Source: an uncultured Bacteroidales bacterium (GTDB taxonomy: Bacteria; Bacteroidota; Bacteroidia; Bacteroidales; Bacteroidaceae). From it: a stretch of DNA of 64,000 bases. The notes below the pieces were generated by a model. It had not been told where the DNA came from and searched no databases. It was given only the letters and a program-made list of their open reading frames with translations. Made by a program: the position numbers and the translations under genes. Location of the stretch: positions 1-64,000 of the forward strand of contig CADCAG010000003.1 of NCBI GenBank assembly GCA_902799355.1, given 5' to 3'. Shown piece after piece: positions 6,374-61,122 of this stretch (position 1 is its first letter; every line of letters starts with the position of its first letter).

Positions 6374-7084
6374 ATGGCAAGATTTAAGAGAATTCTATTG
6401 AAGCTGTCGGGCGAGAGCCTGATGGGTAAGCAGGGTTACGGTATTGACCCTGAGCGCTTGAGCGACTATGCCAAGCAGATTAAGGAAGTGAGTGAGATGG
6501 GCGTACAGATCGGTATCGTCATCGGTGGTGGCAACATCTTCCGCGGACTGTCTGGCTCACAGAAGGGCTTTGACCGTGTGAAGGGCGACCAGATGGGCAT
6601 GTGTGCCACCGTTATAAACTCGCTGGCACTGAGCTCTGCACTGGGTGCTATCGGTGTGAAGAACAAGGTGTTGACAGCTATCCGCATGGAGCCTATCGGT
6701 GAGTTCTATACCAAGTGGAAGGCCATCGAGGCTATGGAGGCAGGCTATGTCTGCATCTTCTCAGCAGGTACAGGTTCGCCTTACTTTACCACGGATACGG
6801 GTTCTAGTCTGCGTGGTGTCGAGATTGAGGCTGACGTCATGTTGAAAGGCACCCGTGTGGATGGCATCTATACTGCAGACCCTGAGAAAGACCCCACAGC
6901 CACCAAGTTCGACGCTATAACATATAAAGAGGTACTCGCGCGAGGTCTGAAGGTAATGGACCTGACGGCTATCTGCATGTGTCAGGACAATAACCTGCCC
7001 ATCTACGTGTTCAATATGGACGTAGTAGGTAATCTGAAGAAAGTAATGGATGGTGAGGAGATTGGAACCTTAGTACATAACTAA
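6374..7084 (+). CDS. pyrH: UMP kinase
   Basis: PyrH phosphorylates UMP to UDP with ATP, the step that commits uridylate to all pyrimidine nucleotides; it is a cytoplasmic hexamer of the amino-acid-kinase fold. The 236-residue product has the family's usual length. It shows LKLSGESL (residues 9-16), GGGNIFRG (51-58), the GTGSPYFTTDT loop (about 136-146) and the C-terminal DLTAICMCQDNNLPI segment. The ATG follows the octamer array. In many Bacteroidetes pyrH is followed by frr, but here the next genes are convergent. Confidence 0.97.
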   Translation: MARFKRILLKLSGESLMGKQGYGIDPERLSDYAKQIKEVSEMGVQIGIVIGGGNIFRGLSGSQKGFDRVKGDQMGMCATVINSLALSSALGAIGVKNKVLTAIRMEPIGEFYTKWKAIEAMEAGYVCIFSAGTGSPYFTTDTGSSLRGVEIEADVMLKGTRVDGIYTADPEKDPTATKFDAITYKEVLARGLKVMDLTAICMCQDNNLPIYVFNMDVVGNLKKVMDGEEIGTLVHN

Positions 7085-7116
7085 GGTTTCAAGTTTCAAG
7101 ATTCAGGTTTCAAGCC
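7085..7116. repeat. TTTCAAG tandem repeat between pyrH and the DUF4834 gene
   Basis: GGTTTCAAG-TTTCAAGATTCAG-GTTTCAAGCC: three copies of TTTCAAG in 32 bases. It lies in the convergent gap and supplies the stop codon (TCA on plus at 7110-7112) of the minus-strand gene. The same motif reappears inside a TonB receptor at 36741. Confidence 0.8.
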
Positions 7117-7481
7117 TCCTCTACGAAGTCTACATATTCGCCATCGGAGTCGTCGAAGATCTTCTTGCTCTCGCGCTCTTGATGGCGATTATCTATGATG
7201 GTCTCGCCAGTGGCCGTCTGTGTTGTGCGAGGCTGCTCGTAAGAACTGGTGTCGTCCATGTCATCGGCCTGACTGGTTGGGCCATACTGCTGGCGCTGGT
7301 TATACTGTTGGCGCTGGCGCCCCGTTTCCTCACGGTGCTGCTGGGCTTGTCTTTCTGCTGCACGCTGAGCGGCAACGCGTATCTTTCTGTAGGTACGATA
7401 GATGTAACTACCCACCAATAACAGGATGAGTACAACGAGGAAGAAGATAAAGGCAAAGAAGCCTAACAGGCCTTTTAACAT
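7110..7481 (-). CDS. DUF4834 family small membrane protein
   Basis: The 123-residue product has one membrane helix (residues 3-28, LKGLLGFFAFIFFLVVLILL) and a long polar, Gln/Arg-rich cytoplasmic tail. It ends in an acidic segment, DSDGEYVDFVEEA. This layout matches the DUF4834 family of Bacteroidetes, whose role is unknown. It lies 12 bases after pssA on the same strand and probably belongs to the psd-pssA operon, suggesting a link to membrane lipid metabolism. Family assignment is from pattern memory. Confidence 0.65.
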   Translation of the reverse strand: MLKGLLGFFAFIFFLVVLILLLVGSYIYRTYRKIRVAAQRAAERQAQQHREETGRQRQQYNQRQQYGPTSQADDMDDTSSYEQPRTTQTATGETIIDNRHQERESKKIFDDSDGEYVDFVEEA

Positions 7482-7493
7482 AGTGATGGATAA

Positions 7494-8180
7494 TTAGTTT
7501 AACATATAGGTGTTTACTGCCGACAGGATGACATACCATGCGATGACGGCTGCCAGTCCGAAGATACCCAGGAAGAGTAGCATCGGTATACATGTCAGCA
7601 GGAAGATGTATTTAATCTCATTACCTTTCCAACCCCACGTCTTGAACTTCAGTGCGAACATCGGTATCTCGCTAATCAGCAGGTAGCTGCTGATAAAGAT
7701 GCCGACAATGATGTACCACTCCATACCCTCGAAGTATATCTGCTTGCCGTGCAGTCCACCAATCAGTGCTCCCCAGAAGAGGGCATTGGCAGGTGTCGGC
7801 AGTCCGATGAATCCCAAAGCCTGACGCTCGTCGAGGTTGAACTTCGCCAGACGAAGGGCGGAGAAGGCGGCGAGGATAAATGCCAGGAATGGCATTAATT
7901 GAGAATGGAGAATGGAGAATTGAGAGAGGTAGCTGAAGATGATGGCAGAGGGCGCAAAGCCGAAGGTGATGTCGTCAGCCAGCGAGTCGAGTTCCTTGCC
8001 GATAGGCGAAGAGACGTGCAACAGGCGAGCCACCATGCCATCGAAGAAATCGAAGACGGCACCGATGACGATAAACAGCAATGCCATGCGGTAGTCACCC
8101 AGGAAAGCCCAGTAGGTGGCTATGCAACCTGAAATGAGATTCAGGCAAGTGATGATATTTGGAATATTGAGTAACTTCAT
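7494..8180 (-). CDS. pssA: CDP-diacylglycerol-serine O-phosphatidyltransferase
   Basis: This integral membrane enzyme condenses CDP-diacylglycerol with L-serine to phosphatidylserine. The 228-residue product has the complete CDP-alcohol phosphotransferase motif D44-x2-D47-G48-x2-A51-R52-x8-G61-x3-D65-x3-D69 and several membrane helices. Its ATG overlaps the psd stop (TAATG), so the two phosphatidylethanolamine-synthesis genes are translationally coupled. Oddity: residues 86-96 (SQFSILHSQLM) are encoded by a low-complexity repeat, an in-frame insertion between the catalytic helix region and the ALRLAKFN helix. Confidence 0.95.
   Translation of the reverse strand: MKLLNIPNIITCLNLISGCIATYWAFLGDYRMALLFIVIGAVFDFFDGMVARLLHVSSPIGKELDSLADDITFGFAPSAIIFSYLSQFSILHSQLMPFLAFILAAFSALRLAKFNLDERQALGFIGLPTPANALFWGALIGGLHGKQIYFEGMEWYIIVGIFISSYLLISEIPMFALKFKTWGWKGNEIKYIFLLTCIPMLLFLGIFGLAAVIAWYVILSAVNTYMLN
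7894..7928. repeat. GAGAATG tandem repeat inside pssA
   Basis: ATTAATTGAGAATG-GAGAATG-GAGAATTGAGAG is a tandem of GAGAAT(G/T) units inside the pssA coding sequence. It keeps the reading frame and encodes SQFSILHSQLM. It resembles the noncoding GAAGAAT repeat at 58311. Confidence 0.75.
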
Positions 8181-8905: not shown

Positions 8906-8910
8906 CAAAA

Positions 8911-8940
8911 TAATTCTTAATTCATAATTCATAATTCATA
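8911..8940. repeat. AATTCATA tandem repeat upstream of psd
   Basis: TAATTC-TTAATTCATAATTCATAATTCATA: four AATTC units at 7-9 base spacing in the divergent region between psd and dnaE. It probably overlaps the psd -33 region. Confidence 0.7.
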
Positions 8941-12736: not shown

Positions 12737-12743
12737 ACCTGAG

Positions 12744-12778
12744 CCCCCTAAGTTAGGGGGCAATAGGGGTCTGAACAA
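12744..12778 (+). repeat. Palindromic element PE-B, copy 1 (CCCCCTAAGTTAGGGGG)
   Basis: A 17-base palindrome, CCCCCTAAGTTAGGGGG, is followed by a spacer and AGGGGTCTGAACAA. It lies just after the dnaE stop. Copy 2 (12838-12870) is the inverse complement and a third copy lies inside cbiP (32902-32939). The palindrome without a T-run is not a standard terminator. Confidence 0.9.
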
Positions 12779-12837
12779 TGGCATAGATTTTGCAAGTAAC
12801 TAATAAACAATATTGTATAACCCTGGGGTGATGACGT

Positions 12838-12870
12838 TTGTTCAGACCCCCAACCCCCTAACTTAGGGGG
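12838..12870 (-). repeat. Palindromic element PE-B, copy 2, inverted
   Basis: TTGTTCAGACCCCC-AA-CCCCCTAACTTAGGGGG is the reverse complement of copy 1. The pair flanks 59 bases, so the whole of 12744-12870 can fold into a long stem. It ends 17 bases before the trxA ATG. Confidence 0.9.
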
Positions 12871-12887
12871 CAAATGATTTTAAGATT

Positions 12888-15212: not shown

Positions 15213-16258
15213 AATCATTCGACATACATCCTGTTAACCGTTCACTAGAGCAGGCAATTCAAGCGAAGATTGACAACCTGAACAAACCCAAGGGTTCGCT
15301 GGGACGCTTGGAGGAACTGGCTATGCAGGTATGCTTGGTTCAGCAGACGGTGGAACCGACGCTGGCTCATCCCTGCCATCTGTTGTTGGGTGGTGACCAC
15401 GGTATTGAACGTGAGGGTGTCAGCGTCTCGCCCCGTGAGGTCACGTGGCAGCAGATGATTAACTTCACCCGTGGTGGTGGAGGCGTCAATATGTTCTGCC
15501 GTCAGCATGGCTTTAAGCTCCGCATAGTCGATGTGGGTGTGGACTACGATTTGTCGGATATTCCTGGTATTCTCAATCGCAAGATAGCCCGTGGCACGAA
15601 GAATTTTCTCTATGAGCCCGCGATGAGCGAAGAAGAATATGACCAAGCCATCGCTGTGGGCGTCGATTTAGTCGATGCCTGCTGTGCTGAGGGCTGTCGT
15701 GTGTTGAGTATCGGCGAGATGGGTATTGCCAATACGTCGCCCTCCAGCATCTGGATGCACCTCTTCGGCAACATCCCTCTTGATGAGTGTATTGGCGCTG
15801 GTGCTGGCCTCAATAACGATGGCATCCGTCATAAATATGAAGTTTTGAAGAAAGCTGTAGATAGGTTTAATGGGCTTAATGGGCAGCCTATTAAACCCAT
15901 TAAACCCATAATGTTCTTCGGTGGCTTCGAGATGGTGGCCGCCATTGGCGCTATGCTGCGTGCTGCCGAGCAACACCTTATTATATTAGTCGATGGCTTC
16001 ATTATGACGGCCTGTGCCATTGCAGCCATCCGTCTCTATCCTGCCTCGCAGGACTACATGATCTTCACCCATTGTGGTGATGAGAGTGGTCACAAGCGCA
16101 TGCTCGACATCGTTGCTGCTAAGCCCCTGTTGCATCTTGGCCTGCGCCTTGGAGAGGGAACTGGAGCCCTCTGCGCCTTCCCCATTGTCGACTCTGCCGT
16201 CCGCATGATGAACGAGATGAACAACTTCGACAACGCGAAGATTACCAAGTACTTCTAA
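15209..16258 (+). CDS. cobT: Nicotinate-nucleotide-dimethylbenzimidazole phosphoribosyltransferase
   Basis: CobT makes alpha-ribazole phosphate from nicotinate mononucleotide and a lower-ligand base, activating the base for CobS. The 349-residue product has LNKPKGSLGRLEELA, GGDHGIEREGVS, GEMGIANTSPSS, and the C-terminal LGLRLGEGTGAL containing the catalytic Glu. Its ATG at 15209 overlaps the cobU stop (ATGA). Oddity: residues about 219-234 (NGLNGQPIKPIKPI) are encoded by an inverted repeat inserted in frame just before FFGGFEMVAAIGAML, where relatives have a short linker. Confidence 0.95.
   Translation: MKSFDIHPVNRSLEQAIQAKIDNLNKPKGSLGRLEELAMQVCLVQQTVEPTLAHPCHLLLGGDHGIEREGVSVSPREVTWQQMINFTRGGGGVNMFCRQHGFKLRIVDVGVDYDLSDIPGILNRKIARGTKNFLYEPAMSEEEYDQAIAVGVDLVDACCAEGCRVLSIGEMGIANTSPSSIWMHLFGNIPLDECIGAGAGLNNDGIRHKYEVLKKAVDRFNGLNGQPIKPIKPIMFFGGFEMVAAIGAMLRAAEQHLIILVDGFIMTACAIAAIRLYPASQDYMIFTHCGDESGHKRMLDIVAAKPLLHLGLRLGEGTGALCAFPIVDSAVRMMNEMNNFDNAKITKYF
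15864..15907. repeat. GGTTTAATGGG inverted repeat inside cobT
   Basis: Left arm GGTTTAATGGGCTTAATGGG, right arm TATTAAACCCATTAAACCC. The 44 bases form an imperfect hairpin whose arms are themselves tandem TTAATGGG units. It is a multiple-of-three insertion in cobT and encodes NGLNGQPIKPIKP. Confidence 0.85.
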
Positions 16259-19950: not shown

Positions 19951-21157
19951 ACTCATCATCTATTTGTTCTTCCCTTGAAATCAGTCGCTTCATCTCTTCT
20001 TCAGGTGGCAGCAGTTCGCGCAGCCGTTCCTGCATGTTTTTGTAAGTAGCCACACCCATAGGTTTCACATAGTCTTGTAACACATACTCCACGTAAGCTC
20101 TGTCAGCCTTCTTACAAAGGATGATACCCACAGATGGATTTTCGTTAGGAAGTTTTTCGTCATCGTCAAGAATACGGAGATATGCAGCAAGCTGTCCCAG
20201 ATACGATGGTTTGAACTGACCTTTCTTCAACTCCACCACCACAAGGGCTTGCAATTCGCGATTATAAAAAAGCAAATCAATCCAATGATCGTGGCCAAGT
20301 TTATCGTAATGCACCTGATGACCTTTATATGTGAACGACTTGCCAAAAGTCATGATAAAGTTCTTGATGTTCATGACAATTTTGCTTTCTATCACCCTTT
20401 CATCAACATTGATGGGGTCAGATTCATCTATGTCCTCCACATTTATATAATCCAGAAGATAGGAGTCTTTAAACGTTTGGATGGTGCGCAATGCCAGTTG
20501 CCTGTCAGGTATCGTCTTAAAGAAGTTATTGGGCAGAGCGTTACGATGGTCATACACCCGGTTCTTTATAGCCGACTCCAAGTCGTCTGCCTTCATCCTG
20601 TTTTGATAGGCTATCTGGATATAATATTTCCGTTCATCATACTCTTTTGCATATCGGAAGATTGCAACATGGTGAGTGAACGAGATATTCAGAAAAGCCG
20701 TAATAGGGAAACTTTCATCGCTTGTAAGCCGCAATTGACGAATTGATTCTGCCTCTGAATCAGCTTTTTGCAAATCGGTAGTTTCGACTACCGAATTAGC
20801 AGAACGCCCCTGAGTGTTAATATTTGTAATTTCGGTAGTTCCGACTACCGAATCAGTTTCAATGTCTTTCCATGTCTCATAGAAGCGACGCATCAACTTG
20901 ATATTCTCTTCAGAGAAACCCTTCAAGCCAGGAAGTTCTGATTTCAGTTGTTTACTGATTGTTCCTATAGCGCCAGTTCCCCAGTAGCTTTTGCGTGAAT
21001 GCTCAGATACATAGCGACCTATGCCATAATACAGCGACAGCTGCTCTTGGTTAACCATTTGGATAGCACGAGCCTGACTTTGCAGAATAGCAGCTTTAAT
21101 CGTCTTCACTGCACTCCGCAATTCCTGTGTTATCATTTTGTTCTTATCTTGTTCCAT
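19949..21157 (-). CDS. DUF1016 (YhcG-type) PD-(D/E)xK nuclease
   Basis: The 402-residue product has the DUF1016 N-terminal domain (SLYYGIGRYVSEHSRKSYWGT, GFSEENIKLMRRFYETW) and the C-terminal nuclease core with Asp near residue 294 (HWIDLLFYNREL) and ELK at about 305-308 (VVVELKKGQFKPSYLGQL). YhcG-type proteins are frequent companions of type I systems. Residues about 102-128 (two TTE/TTD-containing copies) are encoded by two palindromes inserted in the linker. It lies 5 bases downstream of an hsdS-like 3' remnant. Confidence 0.85.
   Translation of the reverse strand: MEQDKNKMITQELRSAVKTIKAAILQSQARAIQMVNQEQLSLYYGIGRYVSEHSRKSYWGTGAIGTISKQLKSELPGLKGFSEENIKLMRRFYETWKDIETDSVVGTTEITNINTQGRSANSVVETTDLQKADSEAESIRQLRLTSDESFPITAFLNISFTHHVAIFRYAKEYDERKYYIQIAYQNRMKADDLESAIKNRVYDHRNALPNNFFKTIPDRQLALRTIQTFKDSYLLDYINVEDIDESDPINVDERVIESKIVMNIKNFIMTFGKSFTYKGHQVHYDKLGHDHWIDLLFYNRELQALVVVELKKGQFKPSYLGQLAAYLRILDDDEKLPNENPSVGIILCKKADRAYVEYVLQDYVKPMGVATYKNMQERLRELLPPEEEMKRLISREEQIDDE
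20775..20794. repeat. Palindrome inside the DUF1016 gene, copy 1
   Basis: TCGGTAGTTTCGACTACCGA: arms TCGGTAGT and ACTACCGA with a four-base loop. It is followed 36 bases later by a near-identical copy; both stay in frame. Confidence 0.8.
20831..20852. repeat. Palindrome inside the DUF1016 gene, copy 2
   Basis: CGGTAGTTCCGACTACCG within TT...AA flanks; differs from copy 1 by a loop base. Translated (minus), the two copies give SVVGTTE and SVVETTD. Confidence 0.8.
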
Positions 21158-29628: not shown

Positions 29629-29831
29629 CACTTCCCCTAAATCGTCGGAAACACCAGTATACAAAGGGATAGTGCGAGGGTAAGTCTTGCTCAAACACTT
29701 ACCCAACACTTAGTAAACACTTACCCTCGCCATTGACTAAGTGTAGGGGAAGTGTAGGGTAAGTGTTGAACAAACACTTCCCCTCTCTCTATCCCTTTCT
29801 GCATCGGCATTTCAGACGGTTAGGGTAAGTG
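29629..29831. repeat. Cluster of seven CACTT(A/C)CCC motifs in both orientations
   Basis: CACTTACCC at 29696 and 29718; its complement GGGTAAGTG at 29757 and 29823; CACTTCCCC at 29629 and 29775; its complement GGGGAAGTG at 29746. They fill the 487-base gap between hsdM1 and the 3' end of cbiB and can form many alternative stems. No gene is visible in 29471-29858. Confidence 0.75.
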
Positions 29832-29858: not shown

Positions 29859-30797
29859 TCATATCAAAGAGACTGCTGCAACCAGCACAATCATCAATAC
29901 CTCTGCCGTGCGATTCACTCGTACGGCAGTTTTCATGTCGTCTGTGGTCAGCGGGCGGTCGTTGGTGCCGATATAGGGTTTGTCAAACAGTTGGCCGAAG
30001 TAATAGTGGGGACCACCGAAGCGACAGTTAAGAATGCCTGCCAAGGCAGCTTCGGGGTAGCCGCTGTTGGGTGAGGCGTGATTTCGTCCGTTCTGACGGA
30101 CGAAAGCCGTGAGTCGCGGTTTCCCCGCGGCTACCACCATCAGCAGGGCGGTGAGACGGGCGGGGATGTAGTTGGCGATGTCGTCGATATGTGCTGCCCA
30201 ACAGCCGAAGTCGCGGTAGCGGTCGGTCTTGTAGCCTATCATGGAGTCGAGGGTGTTGACCATCTTATACGCCATCATGCCAGGGATTCCCAAGAGCATG
30301 TACCAGAAGAGTGGGGCAATGACGCCGTCGCTGAGGTTCTCGGCAAGCGTCTCCAAGGCGGCCGTGCGAACCTCTTGCGCAGAGAGTGCTGAGGTGTCGC
30401 GCCCTACGATGCGGGCCACCTGTCTGCGCCCTTCTTCCAACGAACGGTCGACAGCCAGGAATACCTGGCGTACCTCACGGATGAGTGTGGTACCTGCCAG
30501 GCAGTAGAAGACAAGGATAGAGTCAAAGACCCACCCCCAGCCCCTCCCTGATATGGAGGGGAGTAAATAGATATAATGGCGAATAAGATAAGTAGCAACA
30601 TATACGAAAATAATGAGACCGATGGCCATGAGGGCACCCTTCAGTTTGCGGTGTGTCCCTTTGTTCAGACGACGCTCGCCAAAGGCAATCATCTTGCCAA
30701 AGCCAACAACGGGATGGGGCAGCCATGCGGGGTCGCCCAAGAACAGGTCGAGGAACCAGCCGAGGAGCAGGGGCAATATGATGAATACGGATTGCAC
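29859..30797 (-). CDS. cbiB: Adenosylcobinamide-phosphate synthase
   Basis: CbiB is a membrane protein that attaches aminopropanol (phosphate) to cobyric acid. The 312-residue product has the N-terminal LDLFLGDPAWLPHPVVGFGK (about 15-34), several membrane helices, LSDGVIAPLFWYMLLGIPG and the C-terminal PNSGYPEAALAGIL. The start appears to be GTG at 30797, 3 bases after the cobD stop, within a CACGGATT repeat. Residues about 78-91 (LLPSISGRGWGWVF) come from a G/C-rich element inserted in frame. Confidence 0.92.
   Translation of the reverse strand: MQSVFIILPLLLGWFLDLFLGDPAWLPHPVVGFGKMIAFGERRLNKGTHRKLKGALMAIGLIIFVYVATYLIRHYIYLLPSISGRGWGWVFDSILVFYCLAGTTLIREVRQVFLAVDRSLEEGRRQVARIVGRDTSALSAQEVRTAALETLAENLSDGVIAPLFWYMLLGIPGMMAYKMVNTLDSMIGYKTDRYRDFGCWAAHIDDIANYIPARLTALLMVVAAGKPRLTAFVRQNGRNHASPNSGYPEAALAGILNCRFGGPHYYFGQLFDKPYIGTNDRPLTTDDMKTAVRVNRTAEVLMIVLVAAVSLI
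30528..30563. repeat. CCCCTCC/GGAGGGG element inside cbiB
   Basis: ACCCACCCCCAGCCCCTCC, then CTGATAT, then GGAGGGG. The core CCCCTCC-CTGATAT-GGAGGGG is a hairpin (30541-30561). It stays in frame within cbiB and encodes a Gly/Trp-rich insert. Confidence 0.75.
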
Positions 30798-30813
30798 GGA
30801 TTACACGGATTTT
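30784..30813. repeat. CACGGATT tandem repeat at the cobD-cbiB junction
   Basis: TACGGATTG-CACGGATTA-CACGGATTT-TACG: three 9-base units. The repeat supplies the last codons and TAA of cobD and the GTG start of cbiB. A diverged copy forms the first codons of btuC at 47316. Confidence 0.8.
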
Positions 30814-31769: not shown

Positions 31770-33267
31770 GGTCCGAGATGATTTGATAGAGTTTGTCCAT
31801 GTCGACATGCTGCCGCACATGCGCTGCCAGCTTGTCGTATTGCTGGTCTTTGAAGGACTCAGGGGAGGACTCATGGGGACAGTCCCCATGTAATCCGCTA
31901 CGCTGCTCACACAGGGGACAGTCCCCCTGATTCCCGTGATTCAGCAGGTGCTCAATGACGGGGGCGTTGTCGAGGAAGCCGTGGATATAGGTGCCGATGC
32001 AGTGGTCGGTCTGCAGGATGGCCTGGTCGGTATCGCTGACACCTTGGTGAATCTCATAGCCTTGACACGTTTGCCCATTGAATGGGAACGTCACCTGACG
32101 CGTAGTCTTCTCTGCCGTCATCGTGGTATGGATGGGTAGCAGACCGAGTCCTGGCAGACTGCTGATGCTGCCTTCAATGCCGTCGGGGTCGTTGACGGTC
32201 TGTCCTAACATCTGATAGCCGCCACAAATGCCAACGACCAGCTTGCCGTTGCGGTGAGCACGCAGAATAGCCTGTGCACAACCGTTACGGCGCAGTTCCA
32301 GCAGGTCGTCGAGTGTCGACTTGGTGCCTGGCAGGATGATGATGTCGGCCTCTTGTAAGTCGCTGGTGTTGTTGGTATAGAAGAGGTTGACGCGCGGGTC
32401 ACGCTCCAGCGTGTCGAAGTCGGTGAAGTTGCTGATATGCCGCAGCAGGATGACGGCAATGTTCACCTTGCCCTCAGCCAGTTGGCGCTGCTTCTTTTCA
32501 AGACTCACCGAGTCCTCTTCGTCGATATAGATATCTTTATAATAAGGTATAACGCCAAGGACAGGAATTCCGCAGAGGTCTTCCAGCATCTTACGACCTT
32601 CGTCGAACAGCCGCATGTCGCCACGGAACTTATTGATGATGATGCCCTTGATGAGTGCCCTGTCCTCTGGCGTCTGTAGCATGATGCTGCCATAGACACT
32701 GGCAAAGACACCACCGCGGTCGATGTCGCCCACCAGGATGACATCCGCCTTGGCATGCTGCGCCATTGACATGTTCACCAAGTCGCGGTCGCGGAGGTTA
32801 ATCTCAGCAATGCTGCCGGCACCTTCCATGACAATGGGGTTGTAGCGTGAGGCCAGGAGGTCGAAGGCGGCATGGACCTCGGAGGGGAAATCAATTCCCT
32901 CGTTCAGACCCCTCCTGACCTCCCCTAACTTAGGGGAGGAATGCCAGTAGTCGTAGGCATCCTTGTTGCCGATGGGCTTGCCGTGCAGCACCACCTGCGA
33001 GGTATGGTCGGAGTTGGGCTTCAGCAGTAGCGGGTTCATGTCCGAATGACAGGGGATGCCCGCCGCTTCCGCCTGTACAGCCTGTGCGCGTCCTATCTCC
33101 AGTCCGTCAGGTGTTACATAGCTGTTCAGGGCCATATTCTGTGCCTTGAAAGGGGCAGGGCTGTAGCCGTCCTGTCGGAAGATACGGCAGAAGGCGGCAG
33201 CCACGATGCTCTTACCGACATCGCTGCCTGTTCCGGCAAACATGATAGGATGTAGACGACGTTTCAT
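31762..33267 (-). CDS. cbiP: Cobyric acid synthase
   Basis: CbiP amidates side chains b, d, e and g of the corrin ring using glutamine. The 501-residue product has the P-loop GTGSDVGKS (12-20), SDMNPLLLKPN, EGAGSIAEINLRDRDLVNM, the amidotransferase Cys in GICGGYQMLG (about 344) and the His in GTYIHGFLDN. Two in-frame element insertions are visible: residues about 110-122 (SSPKLGEVRRGLNEG) and about 446-466 (GDCPLCEQRSGLHGDCP). Both lie on surface linkers rather than in motifs. It overlaps cbiA by 4 bases. Confidence 0.95.
   Translation of the reverse strand: MKRRLHPIMFAGTGSDVGKSIVAAAFCRIFRQDGYSPAPFKAQNMALNSYVTPDGLEIGRAQAVQAEAAGIPCHSDMNPLLLKPNSDHTSQVVLHGKPIGNKDAYDYWHSSPKLGEVRRGLNEGIDFPSEVHAAFDLLASRYNPIVMEGAGSIAEINLRDRDLVNMSMAQHAKADVILVGDIDRGGVFASVYGSIMLQTPEDRALIKGIIINKFRGDMRLFDEGRKMLEDLCGIPVLGVIPYYKDIYIDEEDSVSLEKKQRQLAEGKVNIAVILLRHISNFTDFDTLERDPRVNLFYTNNTSDLQEADIIILPGTKSTLDDLLELRRNGCAQAILRAHRNGKLVVGICGGYQMLGQTVNDPDGIEGSISSLPGLGLLPIHTTMTAEKTTRQVTFPFNGQTCQGYEIHQGVSDTDQAILQTDHCIGTYIHGFLDNAPVIEHLLNHGNQGDCPLCEQRSGLHGDCPHESSPESFKDQQYDKLAAHVRQHVDMDKLYQIISDHD
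31872..31929. repeat. GGGGACAGTCCCC palindrome pair inside cbiP
   Basis: CATGGGGACAGTCCCCATG (31872-31890, arms perfect) and CAGGGGACAGTCCCCCTG (31912-31929) frame 21 bases. The whole stretch stays in frame near the CbiP C-terminus and encodes two GDCP units. Confidence 0.85.
32902..32939 (-). repeat. Palindromic element PE-B, copy 3, inside cbiP
   Basis: GTTCAGACCCC then CTCCTGACCT then CCCCTAACTTAGGGG, the same architecture and core as the two copies between dnaE and trxA. It encodes SSPKLGEVRRGLNEG on the minus strand, an in-frame insertion ahead of EVHAAFDLLASRYN. Confidence 0.88.
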
Positions 33268-34713: not shown

Positions 34714-34772
34714 TATGAAAATACAATTTATCACCGTACAGGGATATGCGGTTGGAGAAAAAGGAATAGTTA

Positions 34773-36956
34773 ATGGACCTAAAACAGAAATTGGCTTTTG
34801 GCCTTTGGCTGTTTACTGTTGGTGCAAGTGCACAGAGCGACATCTGGCGTACCGATAGTTTGCAGGAAGTAGTTGTGACAGGTACTGGCACCCAGCACCT
34901 GCTGAAAGATGCGCCCGTGCAGACTGAGGTCATTTCGCGCAAGATGCTCGACAGCTATGGCGGCAAGAGTCTGGAGGATATCCTGTCAGGACTGACGGCA
35001 TCGTTTGCCTTCAGCGAGGGCGACATGGGCAGTCAGATGCAGTTGGGCGGTTTGGGTAACTCGTACATCCTTATATTAATAGACGGCAAGCGCATTCATG
35101 GCGATGTGGGTGGTGAGAACGACCTGGGACTCATTGATCCGCAGAACATCGAAAAGATAGAAATCGTGAAGGGTGCGCAGAGTGCGCTGTACGGCTCGGA
35201 CGCGATGGCTGGTGTTATCAACATTATTACCAAGAAGCACAGACAGAAGGGCGTCTATGTGGACAACAGCACGCAGTATGGCACCCATAACGACCTGCGA
35301 CAGCACAATACGTTGGCGTTGAACTATGGTAAGTGGAGCAGTCAGACAAATTTCCAACTGCAGCGTAACGACGGTTGGCAGAATACGGCCGAGGAATATG
35401 CAGAAGCCATGGTGCTAACAGATAGCAAGAACATGACGGTCAATAAGTTCCGCAATTGGCAGATTGCCGAGCACCTGACATTCCAGCCAACGAAGAAGAT
35501 AGAGCTGTATGCCGACGGTACCTACTATAAAAAGGACATCATGCGACCACGCGATGGCAAGCATGCCAGTTGCGATGTCTATACCTACGACCTGCACTAT
35601 AACAATGCCTCGGCGTCCGTGGGCGGAAAATGGAAGTTGGGAGGTAAAGGCTCGCTGCAAGACTACGTCACACTCGACGTAGACTGGAACATGCATGCCT
35701 ACTACTATAAATACACCGCCAGACACTATGACTACGTATTCTTGGAGGGTGAGGAGTTTGGTGACCAGAACGGTGAGTGGTTCTCTGTGCCCATGTATCC
35801 TGGTCAGCAGAAGTTACAGAGCAATCAGCAACGTGTGATGGGTCAGCTGAAAGGCATCTTCCATCTGCCCTACAATAACACCATCAATGCGGGAGCAGAA
35901 TACCGCTATGACCACCTGAAAGCGCCAGAGCGCACGGAAAAGGGAACAGCCAGCGACTGGACGACAGCGGTGTATGTGCAAGACGAGTTCAACAAACTGT
36001 CGTGGCTGAACATCACAGCAGGATTGCGACTGGTTGACAACCAGAACTTTGGCTTCAGGCTGACACCCAAGGTCAGTGCGATGGCCTCATGGGGCGACTG
36101 GCGTTTCAGACTGGGATGGAGTCAGGGTTTCAAGACCCCTACTGTCAAGGAACTCTATTACCGCTATCTGCACGTCATGGGCAGTAGCACGTTCTTCAAT
36201 TTGGGCAACACCAAGCTAGATCCACAGACCAGCAACTACTGGTCGGCAAATGTGGAGTATCGTGGCGACAAACTGACAGCATCGGTAACGGGCTATATCA
36301 ATAAGCTCGACAACATGATAGCATTGGTGAATGTACCCGTTGGTGAGATTCCTGCTGGTATTACAACGGCATACATGGGTGACGGAAGTAATAATGTACA
36401 GGCACGTATGTATAAGAACATGGACGATGCACGCACCTGTGGTGTGGACGTGACGCTGGGATATAAATTCACCAAGGAACTGTCGATGACAGCAGCATAC
36501 AGCTATCTCGACACGGAAGCGAACCTTTATGATGCTGGTACAGACCAAATGAAGACGGTAGTGATTGACGGAATGGCGCACCACAAATGGAACGCCTCCG
36601 TGATGTACAACCATGCGTTCAGCAACATCTATAAGTTGGGCGTAAACCTATCGACACGAGGCAGCAGTAAACGCTACTATGAGAACAACGGTGACGGACG
36701 AGCCTATCAGCTATGGCGCATCAACACTACGCACGACTTTCAGGTTTCAAGTTTCAAGATTGCCAGTTTCAGGCTGGAGGCGGGCATTGACAACATATTC
36801 AACTATGTGGACCGCACCATGCGTCCCTACCATCTAGGCAACAACACGTCAGGAACAACGGTCTATGGCAAGGTTGTCGTCAAGTTGAATTACGGCAAAA
36901 GTGTTAAACAACATATTTTATCAACAAAACAAAAAAATTACTATGAAGAAGATTAA
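34773..36956 (+). CDS. TonB-dependent outer-membrane receptor (BtuB-like), first
   Basis: The 727-residue product has a signal peptide ending near GASAQ, a TonB-box-like LQEVVVTGTGTQ, a plug domain (ISRKMLDSYGGKSLEDILSG, GSDAMAGVINIIT) and a beta-barrel to the C-terminus. The riboswitch upstream makes cobalamin or another corrinoid the likely substrate. Its coding end overlaps cbiK by 14 bases. Residues about 657-668 (FQVSSFKIASFR) come from a TTTCAAG repeat inserted in a barrel strand region near the C-terminus. Confidence 0.9.
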   Translation: MDLKQKLAFGLWLFTVGASAQSDIWRTDSLQEVVVTGTGTQHLLKDAPVQTEVISRKMLDSYGGKSLEDILSGLTASFAFSEGDMGSQMQLGGLGNSYILILIDGKRIHGDVGGENDLGLIDPQNIEKIEIVKGAQSALYGSDAMAGVINIITKKHRQKGVYVDNSTQYGTHNDLRQHNTLALNYGKWSSQTNFQLQRNDGWQNTAEEYAEAMVLTDSKNMTVNKFRNWQIAEHLTFQPTKKIELYADGTYYKKDIMRPRDGKHASCDVYTYDLHYNNASASVGGKWKLGGKGSLQDYVTLDVDWNMHAYYYKYTARHYDYVFLEGEEFGDQNGEWFSVPMYPGQQKLQSNQQRVMGQLKGIFHLPYNNTINAGAEYRYDHLKAPERTEKGTASDWTTAVYVQDEFNKLSWLNITAGLRLVDNQNFGFRLTPKVSAMASWGDWRFRLGWSQGFKTPTVKELYYRYLHVMGSSTFFNLGNTKLDPQTSNYWSANVEYRGDKLTASVTGYINKLDNMIALVNVPVGEIPAGITTAYMGDGSNNVQARMYKNMDDARTCGVDVTLGYKFTKELSMTAAYSYLDTEANLYDAGTDQMKTVVIDGMAHHKWNASVMYNHAFSNIYKLGVNLSTRGSSKRYYENNGDGRAYQLWRINTTHDFQVSSFKIASFRLEAGIDNIFNYVDRTMRPYHLGNNTSGTTVYGKVVVKLNYGKSVKQHILSTKQKNYYEED
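36741..36774. repeat. TTTCAAG repeat inside the first TonB receptor
   Basis: CAGGTTTCAAGTTTCAAGATTGCCAGTTTCAGGC, the same unit order (CAGGTTTCAAG, TTTCAAGATT) as the noncoding repeat at 7085-7116. It stays in frame. Confidence 0.8.
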
Positions 36957-47356: not shown

Positions 47357-48495
47357 TTCAGTAGATAATAGAAAGTGGGTTTGTAGTCAGCCTCCACCAA
47401 CTCTGGGTGGAAGATTGCTACGAAGTCCTTTAATAGCACGTCAGGTTGTACAGGCGATATCTCGTAGTACGGCGTCTGCTTCATGTTACAGTAGATGACC
47501 TTTTTCTCTTTGTATGCCTTGAATAACTCGTTGCGAGGTTCCGAGGCTTTCAGTGCTTCATACGAGAAATCACCAGGATAACTGTTCAGAATACGCCAGT
47601 AGGTAGCATTGGCAGCCAGTGAATACATCTTTTCAAATTCCAAATCCTCACCGCCAGTCTCCTCGTCATTGATGACATAGCGTGCCCCAGCATCACGGAA
47701 AATCTGTGCCAGATAATTCTTTCCGCCCACAGCGTGCCAGTTTCCATAATGCATCTCACCACTGAAGACACTCGGTGCTGCCATCTTTGAACTTTGAACT
47801 TTGGACTTTAGGTCGTTGTAGCGATTCTCGATACCCGCGAAGACCTCATTGGCTTCTTTTTCTTTACCGATGAACATGCTCACGAACTTAATCCATTCGG
47901 CCTGCCCTAATGGGTTGAGCTCCTGATATCCTAAGTGGGGTACTAGTGTGATACCAGTTTCTTTGATAGCATCATATCCGCCACGCTTCGAGGGCGATAT
48001 GAAAATGATATCTGGATTGGCAGCCAACACCATTTCCGTATCAAAGTTCCCCTCCATGCCAATCTTTACGATGCGCCCATCATTGACTCTTTCAAGGATA
48101 TCCTGGTTAAACAAATTCTTTGTGCCCGTCAAGCCCTTCACCACATCATGGGCATCCAAGATGGTAAAGTTCGACAGTTGCAGAGCAGTCATGCAGATGG
48201 TACTCTTAACGGGTACATGTACCTTAGTATAGCCATCGGGTACTTCAGCATCGACTGATGAAACTAAGGCAAAGTGATACTTTTCGCCAACATCAACAAG
48301 GCGAATGCCGGCTGTGTCTCGCACACAAAATCCTGTGGCATACTTTACTGTAATATTTGTTGAGGAACCATAACCGGTATCCTTATTATTGTCGGTTGAT
48401 GACTGGTTGCTTTTGAGAGAACAGGCACTTATTATTGTCGACAATACGATAGTAATGACAAGACTTCGGCCAAATTTTATCTTCATAGGTTTCAT
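47353..48495 (-). CDS. btuF: Cobalamin-type ABC transporter substrate-binding lipoprotein, first
   Basis: The 380-residue product begins with a lipoprotein signal (SLVITIVLSTIISACS, lipobox Cys near residue 26). It has the periplasmic-binding fold of the BtuF/FepB type: IKIGMEGNFDTEMVLAANPDIIFISP and WIKFVSMFIGKEKEA. It should hand corrinoid to BtuC. ATG 48486 is an alternative start. A run KSKVQSSKM (about residue 230-238) is encoded by an ACTTTGAACTTTGGACTTT repeat. Confidence 0.88.
   Translation of the reverse strand: MKPMKIKFGRSLVITIVLSTIISACSLKSNQSSTDNNKDTGYGSSTNITVKYATGFCVRDTAGIRLVDVGEKYHFALVSSVDAEVPDGYTKVHVPVKSTICMTALQLSNFTILDAHDVVKGLTGTKNLFNQDILERVNDGRIVKIGMEGNFDTEMVLAANPDIIFISPSKRGGYDAIKETGITLVPHLGYQELNPLGQAEWIKFVSMFIGKEKEANEVFAGIENRYNDLKSKVQSSKMAAPSVFSGEMHYGNWHAVGGKNYLAQIFRDAGARYVINDEETGGEDLEFEKMYSLAANATYWRILNSYPGDFSYEALKASEPRNELFKAYKEKKVIYCNMKQTPYYEISPVQPDVLLKDFVAIFHPELVEADYKPTFYYLLK
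47784..47810. repeat. ACTTTGA tandem repeat inside btuF
   Basis: TCTTTGA-ACTTTGA-ACTTTGG-ACTTTA: four 7-base units, in frame, in a surface helix region of the binding protein. Confidence 0.75.
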
Positions 48496-48580: not shown

Positions 48581-48717
48581 GCAATAGGTTAGGGAATGGG
48601 GTGAGAAGCCCCGACTGTCCCGCAGCTGTAAGCAGCCATTCGCGGTGTGAACACGATGTCACTGATATTATTGGGAAGACGTTCGCCACCCGGTTGCAAG
48701 TCAGAATACCTGCCTGT
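48581..48717 (+). ncRNA. Cobalamin riboswitch 2
   Basis: GGGAATGGGGTGAGAAGCCC, then CGACTGTCCCGCAGCTGTAAGC, then GATGTCACTGATATTATTGG-GAAG and the 3' part AAGTCAGAATACCTGCC match the class I cobalamin riboswitch core. It lies upstream of the third TonB receptor and the btuG-like/btuF/btuC genes. Confidence 0.9.
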
Positions 48718-48784
48718 TGTACCAATCGTCTTCTGTACCTCTGGGGTTAGGTCCGTAAGACGAGATACGTGTATTATTATATAA

Positions 48785-52003: not shown

Positions 52004-53144
52004 GCAACTAACCTTACTATCTATACTATTTTCCGTTGTTGTCGCCTTGGCTTCGTGCCGAGGTGGCAACAACACTTCTTTGTCTGTAGAGGGAGGCGAC
52101 ACCGTTGCACTGAAGTATTCGTCACTGCTCACCATCGTTGAGCACGACGGCTATGTCGTTGCCGACATCAAGAATCCTTGGAAGCCCGGCAAGATGCTGC
52201 ATCGCTACTATCTCGTGCCCCGTACTTCAGACATTAAACCTCAGACCTCAGACCTCACTGACGGCACAGTCATCGAGATACCTATTCAGCGTGCTGCCGT
52301 CTTTACCACCGTTCACTGTGCTTTGCTCACCGAACTGGGGCTGGGCAGCCATATTGTGGGTGTGGCAGACTCCAAGTATATCAAGGTGCCTTATATCCAG
52401 CAGCAGATCAAGGCAGGCCGCATTGTGGACTGCGGCAATGGCTTGAACCCCATCGTCGAGAAGATTATGGACGTGAAGCCCGATGTTATCATGCTGTCGC
52501 CCTTTGAAAACAGTGGCGGCTATGGTAAGACGGAGGAGATAGGCATCCCATTGATAGAGTGTGCCGAGTATATGGAGACGTCGCCACTGGCACGTGCTGA
52601 ATGGATGCGCTTCTATGGCTTGCTGTTTGGTGCCGGCGACGAGGCCGATGCCTTGTTCCACAACGTCGACAGCAGTTATGTTGCCTTGAAACAACAGGCT
52701 GCACAGGCTGGCAAGGGGCGCTCTGTCATTGTTGACAAGGTGGTAGGCTCTGTATGGTATATGCCTGGCGGTCGTAGCACGATAGGTCAGATGTTGCAGG
52801 ATGCTGGTGGACAGTATCCGTGGGCAACAGACGATCAGAGCGGTTCGCTGTCACTGCCTTTCGAGACGGTGCTCGAAAGAGGAGGGGAGTCTGATGTGTG
52901 GATGTTACGCTACTCAAGCGACCACGACTGGGATTACAAGGAGTTGCTGTCAGGTCATCGTGGCTATAGTCAGTTGAAGGCATTCCGCCAGCATGAGGTC
53001 TATGGATGTAATGTGGAACAGTCGCATTTCTATGAAGACACACCATTCCATCCCGACCGTCTGCTCTGCGACTTCCTGCAAATTTTGCATCCCGATATAA
53101 TAGGATTGCCTCCGCTGTGTTATTATAAGAAACTGAAAGAGTAA
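51996..53144 (+). CDS. btuF: Cobalamin-type ABC transporter substrate-binding lipoprotein, second
   Basis: The 382-residue product has a lipoprotein signal (LSILFSVVVALASC, Cys21) and the BtuF-type fold: RAAVFTTVHCALLTELGLG, IVEKIMDVKPDVIMLSPF, ARAEWMRFYGLLFG. It overlaps the BtuG-like gene by 8 bases and is 8 bases ahead of the permease gene. Residues about 76-87 (TSDIKPQTSDL) come from a CAGACCTCA repeat inserted between two strands, where the paralogue at 47353 has a short turn. Confidence 0.88.
   Translation: MSKQLTLLSILFSVVVALASCRGGNNTSLSVEGGDTVALKYSSLLTIVEHDGYVVADIKNPWKPGKMLHRYYLVPRTSDIKPQTSDLTDGTVIEIPIQRAAVFTTVHCALLTELGLGSHIVGVADSKYIKVPYIQQQIKAGRIVDCGNGLNPIVEKIMDVKPDVIMLSPFENSGGYGKTEEIGIPLIECAEYMETSPLARAEWMRFYGLLFGAGDEADALFHNVDSSYVALKQQAAQAGKGRSVIVDKVVGSVWYMPGGRSTIGQMLQDAGGQYPWATDDQSGSLSLPFETVLERGGESDVWMLRYSSDHDWDYKELLSGHRGYSQLKAFRQHEVYGCNVEQSHFYEDTPFHPDRLLCDFLQILHPDIIGLPPLCYYKKLKE
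52225..52259. repeat. CAGACCTCA repeat inside the second btuF
   Basis: CTTCAGACATTAAACC, TCAGACCTCAGACCTCACT: three CAGAC units, two of them in a perfect 8-base tandem, in frame. Confidence 0.7.
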
Positions 53145-58310: not shown

Positions 58311-58342
58311 AATGAAGAATGAAGAATGAAGAATGAAGAATT
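58311..58342. repeat. ATGAAGA tandem repeat
   Basis: AATGAAGA-ATGAAGA-ATGAAGA-ATGAAGAATT: four perfect 7-base units in the gap between the YqaA-like and DUF2723 genes. Confidence 0.85.
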
Positions 58343-58376: not shown

Positions 58377-58829
58377 CTATATAAACAGTTGTGCACCATA
58401 TATCAAAACCACGTAGCGTAGGAATTTACCCAATGCGATGCTGGTCAGTGAGATGGGAATGTTGGCGCGCATCAGTCCTAAGACGATGGTGATGGCTGAC
58501 CCTAGCAAGGGTACAAAGGCAAAGAACCCCATCCAGGCGCCATGACCTCCCATGAAGCGGGTGGCCTTGTCAAGATCCTGCTGTTTGACATGCAGGTATT
58601 TCTCTATCCACTCCAGCTTACCCATGCGCCCTACGAAATAGTTGAACATTCCACCAGCCACATTGCCGATGGTTCCATAGATGATAAGTCCCCAAGGGTC
58701 CAGTCCTGCAGCCAACAGTCCAGTCATTACCGCCTCGCTAGAGAACGGGAAGAAGGAGCCGGCAATGAAGGCTGTGATTAACATGCCCCAATAACCGTAA
58801 CTAATCAGGAGAGAGATGAGAACATCCAT
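58377..58829 (-). CDS. YqaA-like (DedA/SNARE-associated) membrane protein
   Basis: The 150-residue product has four to five membrane helices and the pattern FFPFSSEAVMTGLLAAG, GNVAGGMFNYFVGRMG, FFAFVPLLGSAITIVLGLMR, typical of YqaA/DedA relatives. The family is implicated in membrane homeostasis and lipid handling. Its start overlaps the 3' end of the next membrane protein gene by 25 bases. Confidence 0.85.
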   Translation of the reverse strand: MDVLISLLISYGYWGMLITAFIAGSFFPFSSEAVMTGLLAAGLDPWGLIIYGTIGNVAGGMFNYFVGRMGKLEWIEKYLHVKQQDLDKATRFMGGHGAWMGFFAFVPLLGSAITIVLGLMRANIPISLTSIALGKFLRYVVLIYGAQLFI

Positions 58830-59743
58830 ATATTATAGATCGTAAGTAACAGTGTAGCAATGCAGAGTGTCATAAAGGTGATGTTCGTCAGTTTGGTAGA
58901 TGACAGTGCCGCAAAATGGGCTATCAGCGGTGAGGTGTTGAGTATCATGATAAGCAACATGGCATTGAAATGCTGTGGCTGCAGCAGCAGGAACAGCAGG
59001 GCTGCCATATCCATAAAGATAAAGAAACCATAGAACATACGGATGCGTATCTTGTCCAGATAACTTTTTCGGATATAGTGTACCGTACCTATAATGGACA
59101 GTAGGATGACCAAACCTAGCGTAGCCTTTTGACTGTCAGTGATGCCATAGAAGTTAAAGGGCTCGTCAAAGGCTGTCAGTGCCATGAAATGATCAATGAT
59201 TGCTGAATAGTCTTTCTGGTAGAACAACCATGCGCAGTAGAACCAATAGGGTGTCACTAGTCCTAACAACGATGCTATCCAGGTGCGCCAGGATAGTGAC
59301 ATCGTGTTGGTAATCATCAGAAGCCAGATTAGTGGCAGGAAGAAGAGCACATGAATATATGAGATTGACGCCACGCCGAGAAAGAGAAAGGCGTAGTAGG
59401 TGAGTCCTGCCGCCTCTTTATTCTGGTACGTGAGAAATAGCAATAGAATGCTTACTACCAGGCACATCAGCATGGAGACCTCGCGGAGGGCAGGGAAGAG
59501 GAAACATGCACAGCAAGTCAACGTCAGGAATGTACTACTCACCATGCGTGAGAAGATGCGTATCAGGGCATTGATGTTGTTGAGTTCTACCATCAGGTAG
59601 GTGGTGAAGCCAAAGCATATCAGCTGCCACCACCAGTGATTGGTCACAACACCACAAGATAACCATACTGCCATGGCATATACCGTGGTGACAGGCATGG
59701 TCATCTTGCTTTCCGCAATCCTATTCTGTAGTAGTTTCCTCAC
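58805..59743 (-). CDS. Multi-spanning membrane protein of unknown function
   Basis: The 312-residue product contains about nine hydrophobic helices (for example FLTLTCCACFLFPALREVSM, VLFFLPLIWLLMITNTMSLS) and few conserved charged motifs. It resembles Bacteroidetes inner-membrane proteins with DUF6427-like layout, but the assignment is uncertain. It lies between purD and the yqaA-like gene, 36 bases from purD, probably co-transcribed. Confidence 0.65.
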   Translation of the reverse strand: MRKLLQNRIAESKMTMPVTTVYAMAVWLSCGVVTNHWWWQLICFGFTTYLMVELNNINALIRIFSRMVSSTFLTLTCCACFLFPALREVSMLMCLVVSILLLFLTYQNKEAAGLTYYAFLFLGVASISYIHVLFFLPLIWLLMITNTMSLSWRTWIASLLGLVTPYWFYCAWLFYQKDYSAIIDHFMALTAFDEPFNFYGITDSQKATLGLVILLSIIGTVHYIRKSYLDKIRIRMFYGFFIFMDMAALLFLLLQPQHFNAMLLIMILNTSPLIAHFAALSSTKLTNITFMTLCIATLLLTIYNIWMFSSLS

Positions 59744-59770
59744 TATTCGTTATTCACTATTCATTAGCGA
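59744..59770. repeat. ATTCACTATTC short repeat
   Basis: CACTATTCGTTATTCACTATTCATTAG in the purD-membrane protein gap: three ATTC units at 8-base spacing. Another member of the same type of low-complexity tract. Confidence 0.6.
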
Positions 59771-59778
59771 AGCGCCTT

Positions 59779-61065
59779 CTATAGGTCTGCTCCAATGTCA
59801 CGACGGAAATATCTGTCGGTGAACTGGATCTTCTTGGCTTCTTCGAAAGACTTCTGCAATGCCTCGCTCTTGTCTTTACCATATGACGATACGGCAATGA
59901 CGCGTCCACCATTGGTAACAAGTTTTCCGTCCTTGAGTGCAGTGCCAGCATGGAAAACAATACTACCATCGACCTTGTCAATACCACTCATCTCATAACC
60001 TTTTTTGTATGCTTGTGGATAGCCTCCGCTGACCAACATGACACAGACGGCGGCACGCTTGTCGAACTCGATGGCGTGTTGGTCAAGATTGCCAGCAGCA
60101 ACACCTTCAAAGAGGTCTACGATATCGCTCTTCAGGCGCAGCATGACGCTTTCCGTCTCTGGGTCGCCCATACGGCAGTTGTATTCGATAACGTAGGGCT
60201 CGGGCTCGCCAGTGGGGGTGTTAGTGCGGTTGATAAGACCAAAGAAGATAAAGCCTTTATAGTCGATGCCATCGGCTTTCAGACCCTCTACGGTAGGACG
60301 GATGATGCGGTCTTCCACCTTCTGCATCCACTCTTTGGTTGCAAAGGGTACTGGGCTGACAGAACCCATACCGCCCGTATTCAGGCCAGTATCTCCCTCT
60401 CCGATACGTTTGTAGTCCTTGGCTTCAGGCAGTATCTGATAGTGGTCGCCATCAGTGAGTACGAAGACGCTGCACTCGATACCGCTCATAAACTCCTCGA
60501 TGACGACACGACTGCTGGCATTGCCGAACATGCCGCCCAGCATCTCCTGCAGCTCCTTCTTGGCCTCGTCGAGGGTGGGGAGAATGAGAACGCCCTTGCC
60601 GGCACAGAGACCGTCAGCCTTCAGTACGTAGGGTGCCTGGAGGGTTTCCAAGAAGGCTAAACCTTCTTGCACATGTTCTCCGTCGAACGTCTCATAGCGG
60701 GCTGTGGGGATGTTATGACGTGTCATGAATGCTTTGGCAAAGTCCTTTGACCCTTCCAATACGGCACCAGCCTTTGATGGGCCGATGACAGGGATGTTCT
60801 TGGTACGCTCATCTACCTTCATGTCGTCGTAGATACCTTTTACCAGTGGGTCTTCCGGTCCGACAACAACCATATCGATGGCTTTGTCGACACAGAACTG
60901 TTTGATGGCTTCGAAGTCGTCAGCCTTCATAGCTACGTTCTCTCCGCAATTGCCAGTACCACCATTGCCTGGTGCAATATACAGTTTCTCACATTTCTCA
61001 CTCTGAGCAATTTTCCAGGCCAGCGCATGCTCACGTCCGCCACTGCCTAAAAGTAGTATCTTCAT
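59779..61065 (-). CDS. purD: Phosphoribosylamine-glycine ligase
   Basis: PurD joins glycine to phosphoribosylamine with ATP, the second step of purine synthesis. The 428-residue product from ATG 61065 shows [17 protein letters not shown] at the N-terminus, [25 protein letters not shown], the ATP-grasp segment [16 protein letters not shown], and [12 protein letters not shown]. Upstream frame was rejected because it reads through the octamer array and into serB. Length is normal. Confidence 0.96.
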
Positions 61066-61082
61066 TGTTTTTATTGTTTTTT

Positions 61083-61122
61083 TCGATATTTCGAGGTTTC
61101 GATATTCCGATATTTCGTTATA
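61083..61122 (-). repeat. Five-unit CGAANNNN-type octamer array before purD
   Basis: On the coding (minus) strand the units read CGAAATAT, CGGAATAT, CGAAACCT, CGAAATAT, CGAAAAAA, each exactly 8 bases. CGAAACCT is identical to the first unit of the pyrH array. It begins at the serB stop and ends 12-17 bases before the purD ATG. Confidence 0.88.

Follow-up and report, generated by a model that had tools for sequence, protein, structure and literature searches.

Short repeats of two classes, period-7 tandem arrays and palindromic elements resembling repetitive extragenic palindromic (REP) sequences, lie between genes and in frame inside genes throughout a 64,000-nucleotide stretch of DNA (the window: bases 1-64000 of contig 3 in a 2.87-Mb draft genome, G000, of 78 contigs and 83% completeness). 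As the initial annotation of this DNA had proposed, several families of such repeats are inserted in frame; they occupy the same places in proteins from different species, and one insertion is filled in one and empty in the other of two closely similar loci. We consider it fairly probable that these patterns reflect slippage of heptamer arrays and their copying among loci of a genome, together with REP- or HUH-like hairpin elements, all under selection for the reading frame. Throughout, the labels L, G and C denote fetched loci or stretches, genomes, and contigs of the window genome, respectively.

Different repeats at the same protein sites

Repeat kinds were assigned by eye from alignments of pssA, cbiP, cobT, cbiB, btuF1 and the first TonB receptor (TonB receptor 1), and rows under 50% identity were dropped for cobT, cbiB, btuF1, btuF2 and TonB receptor 1. 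The variable stretch of pssA holds a heptamer array in five of 30 loci (the window, L128, L133, L136 and L148, with a possible degraded array in L147 scored as none), while the other 25 rows have either the CTFHIHxPxxPF form (FHIH; 17 rows) or another linker (8 rows). On a protein tree built without this stretch (30 fetched loci, of 114 genomes with a match plus the window genome's own), the pssA arrays require five changes. Site 1 of cbiP, which follows DYW, carries a repeat in 7 of the 31 readable rows, and these repeats are of several kinds. The window has a REP-like element here, and L047, L053 (the isolate Prevotella ruminicola KHT3) and L063 have palindromes; heptamers occupy the site in L044 and L046, and in L054 they flank a palindrome. 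Rows from Bacteroides and Phocaeicola are continuous at this site, without a repeat. Presence at site 1 needs at least four changes on the cbiP tree and six when the kinds are distinguished, with L084, L086 and L090 excluded and an unclassified site-1 insert in L048 scored as none.

At site 2 of cbiP, close to the C-terminus, the window has palindromes; heptamers are found there in L044, L046, L056 and the near twins L047 and L090, and L045 has a mixed stretch. Similarly, the cobT repeats are inverted 9-mers in the window and heptamers in L044 and L047 (TCTCAAC in L047), and cbiB has heptamers in L047, L090, L048 and L060 where the window has a REP-like element. Arrays are found in the window and L044 for both btuF1 (none in the other 3 rows) and TonB receptor 1 (none in the other 8 rows), and no btuF2 orthologue of at least 50% identity was present in the set compared. 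With different repeats lying at matching stretches across species, the same places have therefore been reused by unrelated sequence. Judged from these alignments, the repeats of pssA, cbiP, cobT, cbiB, btuF1 and TonB receptor 1 are not shared ancestral residues; aligning orthologues, a check put forward in the initial annotation, finds the residues lacking from rows outside the close relatives. From the alignments, the repeat-bearing sites are predicted to be surface linkers.

Number, placement and sharing of heptamer arrays

Heptameric repeats, which also go by the name STRR, are abundant in the window genome. A lag-based scan (score of at least 11) of 464 kb, comprising the window and 20 other 20-kb stretches and together 16% of the genome, found 37 period-7, 14 period-9 and 5 period-8 arrays and none of period 10, and a control order-3 Markov sequence scanned at the identical threshold gave 0 at each of these periods. 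Within the window, Tandem Repeats Finder (TRF) reports period 7 at 7086, 7897, 8910, 47785, 52227 and 58311, period 14 at 59740, and period 8 at 6292 and 61081. Stretches totalling 1.19 Mb from 40 other genomes of the genus, on contigs chosen as pssA-bearing rather than at random, contain 107 period-7, 41 period-9, 13 period-8 and 2 period-10 arrays. At least one period-7 array is present in the sequence read from 28 of 41 genomes, the window genome included. Only 12 of the 37 period-7 arrays lie inside open reading frames (ORFs), although ORFs defined by a simple caller account for 91% of the bases in the 464 kb; the arrays are depleted in ORFs but not barred from them.

The 37 arrays have 27 distinct units. 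AATTGAG-like arrays occur at 33 places in the window genome with up to 3 mismatches, a hand count from 66 matches. The mirror images (not complements) GAGTTAA and GTTTCAA match more often than the units AATTGAG and CTTTGAA: the reversed CTTTGAA pattern has 10 matches versus 3 forward, and the reversed AATTGAG pattern has 96 versus 66 forward. GAGTTAA is itself an array unit, so that the 33 places have no clean chance figure. Some arrays appear by eye to fold back, with the units on the two sides reverse-complementary to each other, as might follow a strand switch during synthesis; examples are at window 15864-15909, at window 29694-29766 and in cobT of L044.

Units are shared within genomes more than between them. 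Eleven identical unit pairs occur in the window genome versus 2.4 plus or minus 1.4 for letter-shuffled units. Among 194 arrays from 40 genomes (named loci included, pairs less than 2 kb apart omitted), units are identical in 3.4% of array pairs within a genome versus 1.0% between genomes, and in 7.3% versus 1.15% when the window genome is excluded, values that 0 of 2000 permutations reached in either case. Moreover, the order of variant units recurs at separate loci when read directly, without a null model: 36 bp of alternating GATGTCT/GATGTAA in one variant order lie on both C1 and C6, C1 and C9 have a common order over 29 bp and 23 bp, and 20 bp of one variant order are found at window 7084 (intergenic) and 36742 (inside the TonB receptor gene). 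The pssA mixture of AATTGAG and AATGGAG recurs at C19, and at C39 it recurs together with a further variant. An order of variants common to unlinked loci suggests copying between loci, because slippage in place does not predict it.

A 75-bp hairpin element within heptamer arrays

Over 2,357 bp that cover most of cbiP, cobD and the start of cbiB, loci L047 and L090 share 97.5% identity. Relative to L090, the cbiB gene of L047 has a 75-bp in-frame insertion inside a TCTTCAC array; L090 has the array without the insertion and with an equal number of units. This element has 21 matches in its genome, G120, itself and partial matches included. Relatives among the matches listed lie in L048, L161, L221 and L056, and no window-genome stretch was among the matches listed for three query copies in the other fetched loci. 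In the lower-identity stretch of L090 (~2766-2830, 3' cbiB), an AATTTTC array lies between CCGTACG-type palindromes and is absent from L047.

The first hairpin of the element is fully paired in 18 of 20 copies, two of these 18 having one G-T pair, with five different 5' arms (pairing was scripted, stem lengths of 4 and 5 being tried and the better one kept, with no chance control). When the element is removed at TTGA...GCAGCC, the heptamer phase continues (6 or 7 of 7) in 11 of 19 copies, compared with 0 of 19 at each of six other offsets; for these 11 joins, a 7-bp target duplication inside the array would be indistinguishable from none. The right flank starts with TT in 18 of 19 copies, and a relative of the element in L048 is likewise in phase inside a CATTCGT array. 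An array lies within 50 bp of 12 of 20 copies at a low threshold and 8 of 20 at a strict one (approximately 11 of 18 and 7 of 18 without L208 and L211), as against 24% and 21% of random intergenic sites and 3.4% and 3.0% of all sites. Because of the filled and empty pair, the copies in the genome, the in-phase joins and the nearby arrays, we regard the element as very probably mobile, often between heptamer units. A 7-bp target duplication was rejected as a rule, since none was seen in copies outside arrays, where the direct-repeat matches of 7 number 3 in L196, 3 in L199, 2 in L213, 4 in L161 and 2 in L221. A phage origin was also rejected, there being no match among 50,697 phage records, and five loci containing the element gave no Rfam match at the gathering threshold.

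Palindromic elements and other features of the window

The palindrome CCCCTAACTTAGGGG has 22 exact sites in the window genome, 20 of which form 10 inverted pairs, all in one inverted order with starts 54-110 bp apart; the cbiP copy is solitary. The palindrome GGGGACAGTCCCC has 5 exact sites there, and one of these, on C32, is 39 bp from a one-mismatch copy, which is the spacing of the cbiP pair. A GTAG/CGTC tag at the hairpin foot is absent from those REP-like copies that were read, a part of the total. A reverse transcriptase was also set aside as the mover; the window genome has one partial match, at C61:6077-6385 (L214).

Most repeats listed in the initial annotation are present, and most have relatives elsewhere in the genome. 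The in-frame repeats of pssA, cobT, cbiB, cbiP (two), TonB receptor 1, btuF1 and btuF2 are upheld, as are those between genes starting at 6292, 7086, 8910, 12743, 30787, 58311, 59740 and 61081 (Table 1). The DUF1016 and cbiJ-cbiD repeats proved to have no dispersed copies in the sequence searched: the DUF1016 palindrome has, at up to 2 mismatches, only its two local copies in the window genome, and the single sample match of the cbiJ-cbiD stretch is the stretch itself, with one of five shuffles also giving 1. Two further sites are weak, the btuF1 array having one relative elsewhere in the window genome within 2 mismatches and the cobT element matching only its own two halves in the sample.

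Table 1. Positions of repeat features in the window (strand as given;. denotes no strand)
Feature	Position	Strand	Relatives
8-bp tandem array, TCGAAACA-like, upstream of pyrH	6292..6362	.	L029:7440, L037:13205
Heptamer array GTTTCAA after pyrH	7086..7114	.	
Heptamer array AATTGAG/AATGGAG, in frame in pssA, stretch SYLSQFSILHSQLMPF	7897..7925	-	
Heptamer array ATAATTC upstream of psd	8910..8940	.	
Inverted pair of REP-like palindromes (REPIN-like), dnaE-trxA intergenic	12743..12872	.	
Quasi-palindrome of 9-mers, in frame in cobT	15864..15909	+	
Two copies of palindrome TCGGTAGTTNCGACTACCGA in DUF1016 gene	20775..20856	-	
Intergenic 11-mer arrays, inverted orientation	29694..29766	.	L040:19682
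REP-like palindrome, in frame in cbiB, LLPSISGRGWGWVFDS	30530..30565	-	
9-mer repeat, cobD-cbiB junction	30787..30811	.	Inverted relative at 47315-47343
Two GGGGACAGTCCCC palindromes 39 bp apart, in frame near cbiP C-terminus	31872..31927	-	
Single REP-like element, in frame in cbiP, HSSPKLGEVRRGLNEGIDF	32888..32943	-	
Heptamer array GTTTCAA, in frame in first TonB receptor gene	36738..36761	+	
Heptamer array CTTTGAA, in frame in btuF1	47785..47809	-	
Heptamer array TCAGACC, in frame in btuF2	52227..52257	+	
Heptamer array AATGAAG upstream of DUF2723/TMEM260-like gene	58311..58341	.	
Heptamer array (period 14 in TRF) over start of ORF 58805-59743	59740..59766	-	L036:8301
8-bp array TTTCGATA upstream of purD	61081..61121	.	

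Among named records, those closest to the window cbiP belong to Prevotella, Prevotellaceae and Bacteroidales and in many cases derive from gut or rumen metagenomes, and on that basis the genome is probably that of a rumen Prevotella. Pfam backs cobS, cobT, cbiK, cbiH-C, cbiG-F, cbiJ-D, one btuC, two TonB receptors, purD, the DUF1016 gene and the TMEM260-like (DUF2723) gene, as well as cobD as a class I/II aminotransferase; the names pssA, psd, pyrH, dnaE, trxA, cbiB, cbiP and btuF are those of the initial annotation. The leaders at 34550-34730 and 48590-48770, upstream of TonB receptor genes, may be cobalamin riboswitches, judged by eye from their resemblance to the motif of that class. Direct repeats of 28-47 bp lie at gene ends (window 21162-21208, 22979-23006 and 25214-25273) in a type I restriction-modification region with an hsdS-like gene and two hsdM-like genes, and these are possibly recombination sites.

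Comparison with known repeat systems

The component parts are of known kinds, namely heptameric repeats, which are abundant among bacteria and present in a few Bacteroidetes (PMC4692102, PMC4679880), REP doublets forming hairpins (REPINs; PMC3116915), REPs inside genes (PMC3733652) and the palindromic protein inserts of Rickettsia (PMC10969869). Heptamer repeats are described as heptanucleotides in Calothrix, GGGAATC in Xanthomonas, GGGGA(C/T)T in Nostoc, and TAACTGA in Beggiatoaceae, Cyanobacteria and five Bacteroidetes (PMC4692102, PMC4679880). The present arrays resemble these in being dispersed, mostly intergenic, tandem 7-bp units (PMC4692102, PMC4679880), above chance in number and with one unit at many loci, but differ in having 27 units in 37 arrays, in lying inside ORFs in 12 of 37 cases, and in the reoccupation of protein sites across species. 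The palindromes are, like REPs and REPINs, short and many-copy, with inverted pairs (10 exact pairs here, the cbiP copy being single), and they also stand in frame in genes, as some REPs are described to do (PMC3733652); unlike REPs and REPINs, they have no GTAG/CGTC tag in the copies read and no Y1 match in an 83% complete genome.

The initial annotation had likened the repeats to Rickettsia palindromic elements (RPEs), described as ~150 bp long, encoding a conserved peptide and comprising ten families (PMC10969869). RPEs are likewise palindromic in-frame inserts in unrelated genes, in several families (PMC10969869), but the elements here are 20-80 bp long, the inserts read have no common peptide, and the majority are tandem heptamers, so that one Rickettsia-type kind is not supported. 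Nor does having many families set the present repeats apart, as had been suggested, given that RPEs themselves form ten families (PMC10969869). Borg tandem repeats, described as independent and recent and as adding unstructured stretches to proteins, are alike in being new repeats that extend proteins (PMC9879509); they belong to archaeal extrachromosomal elements, whereas those here are chromosomal, with a unit of 7 shared between loci of one genome. A miniature inverted-repeat transposable element (MITE) with a minisatellite in Porphyromonas gingivalis, also one of the Bacteroidetes, similarly joins a tandem repeat to a small mobile element, but, compared by description, the repeat is inside the element there and the element inside the repeat here (PMC4596501). 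Non-autonomous elements of the IS200/IS605 type share with the 75-bp element a hairpin close to one end that is conserved by structure (18 of 20 copies), but the element was not found in the fetched surroundings of either Y1 gene of G120. Nostoc small dispersed repeats may be alike, being reportedly very small mobile elements that sit in heptamer repeats. Among the titles and abstract openings listed from openly licensed papers on heptameric or constant-size repeats, on repeats of Prevotella or Bacteroidetes, on palindromic elements within proteins and on REPIN/RAYT in Prevotella, none describes the combination seen here.

Proposed mechanism and alternatives

We propose that heptamer arrays lengthen and shorten by slipped-strand synthesis and that they are copied among the loci of one genome, perhaps by template switching or gene conversion, and copying of this kind would explain why each genome has its own unit set. 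Hairpin elements, of the REP/REPIN type or derived from IS200/IS605, would insert precisely, with no evident target duplication, and would often land between two units of a heptamer array. Selection would then retain intergenic repeats and those in-frame repeats whose length and sequence the protein tolerates, removing any that break the frame or the fold; the stretches of pssA, cbiP, cobT and cbiB would have been repeatedly colonised by unrelated sequence because tolerated in-frame insertions are kept.

A number of observations count against this proposal. No period-7 array is present in the stretch examined for 13 of the 41 genomes. The pssA stretch with an array has nearly the array-free length, residues having been replaced or eroded rather than added, and the array therefore stands in place of other residues instead of being additional to them. 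At cbiP site 2, presence is explained by only 2 changes on the tree, and the branches uniting the window with its neighbours in the pssA and cbiP trees have only moderate support. As to the 75-bp element, L047 and L090 are only 90.5% identical over the 953 bp beyond the site, 8 of 19 copies lack a clean heptamer phase, the ends of the element were chosen after viewing the flanks, two of the 11 in-phase copies (L205 and L206) are near-duplicate loci, and two of the 20 copies (L208 and L211) overlap one place; the nearness of elements to arrays in part reflects both being intergenic. A genome-wide mutational bias could account for some of the shared units, but scarcely for the common order of variants. 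Finally, a Y1 transposase was rejected as the mover: the 83% complete window genome has 0 matches to the Y1 transposase/REP-associated tyrosine transposase (RAYT) family PF01797, which is matched in 72 of 120 genomes of the genus, and neither of the two Y1 matches of G120 has the element in its fetched surroundings. A RAYT-like Y1 transposase gene of G120 (L215) has GGGACGGG-type palindromes alongside, by eye, which are unlike the 75-bp element.

On one alternative account, each heptamer array is instead born in place, by polymerase slippage on a local seed and with no copying between loci; heptamers are described as the commonest class of 5-11 nt repeat in most repeat-rich genomes, and Mrazek and colleagues are reported to have proposed that period 7 is the stretch that the polymerase holds (PMC4679880, PMC4692102). 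The heptamer arrays at cbiP site 1 are, by eye, purine-rich, as is the repeat-free sequence there. Nevertheless, units are common within genomes more than between them, the order of variant units is common to unlinked loci, and the AATTGTC arrays of pssA are unlike the array-free sequence, and we therefore rate this explanation as unlikely, if still worth serious attention. It is distinctly improbable that the arrays owe nothing to slippage and are both landing pads and footprints of a transposition cycle, in which hairpins insert exactly between units and an enzyme, of the element or of the host, copies or leaves heptamers; were this true, period 7 would measure a step of the cycle, which would keep writing new linkers into conserved proteins genus-wide. 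A related account, in which a hairpin element duplicates 7 bp on insertion and leaves both copies on excision, so that repeated cycles build an array, is very improbable. The in-phase joins of 11 of 19 copies are compatible with it, a 7-bp duplication being hidden inside arrays, and L195 and L197 have, by eye, few units on the left side; but L196, L199, L213, L161 and L221, which lie outside arrays, lack a 7-bp direct repeat, the filled array of L047 has as many units as the empty one of L090, and by eye no such element stands within 110 bp on either side of the 37 window-genome arrays.

The spread of one coding-competent kind of repeat as peptide units, as in Rickettsia, would account for palindromic inserts in frame in unrelated metabolic genes, but not for the lack of a common peptide in the window-protein inserts read or for the majority of tandem heptamers, and we hold it to be extremely unlikely. 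Faulty assembly or binning of metagenome-assembled genomes is the sort of error that a draft in 78 contigs, as the window genome is, could contain, and other genomes of 1 to 4 contigs (G024, G016, G084) have no arrays in the stretch read. Arrays are present, however, in other genomes of 1 to 4 contigs (G117, G045, G061, G075), and the isolate P. ruminicola KHT3 has the palindromic insert at cbiP site 1, so that an artefact is scarcely credible.

Implications

Relative to the systems compared above, what seems new is that repeats recur at matching positions in proteins, that a genome has many units and shares them among its loci, and that hairpins are nested in phase in arrays. The comparative evidence is clean, in that a single site has differing repeats in some species and none in related ones. 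Under the explanation that we favour, short repeats would supply new stretches to conserved and biosynthetic proteins again and again, and these genomes may serve as a natural setting in which to study the preference of bacterial tandem repeats for period 7 and the possible targeting of heptamer arrays by hairpin elements.

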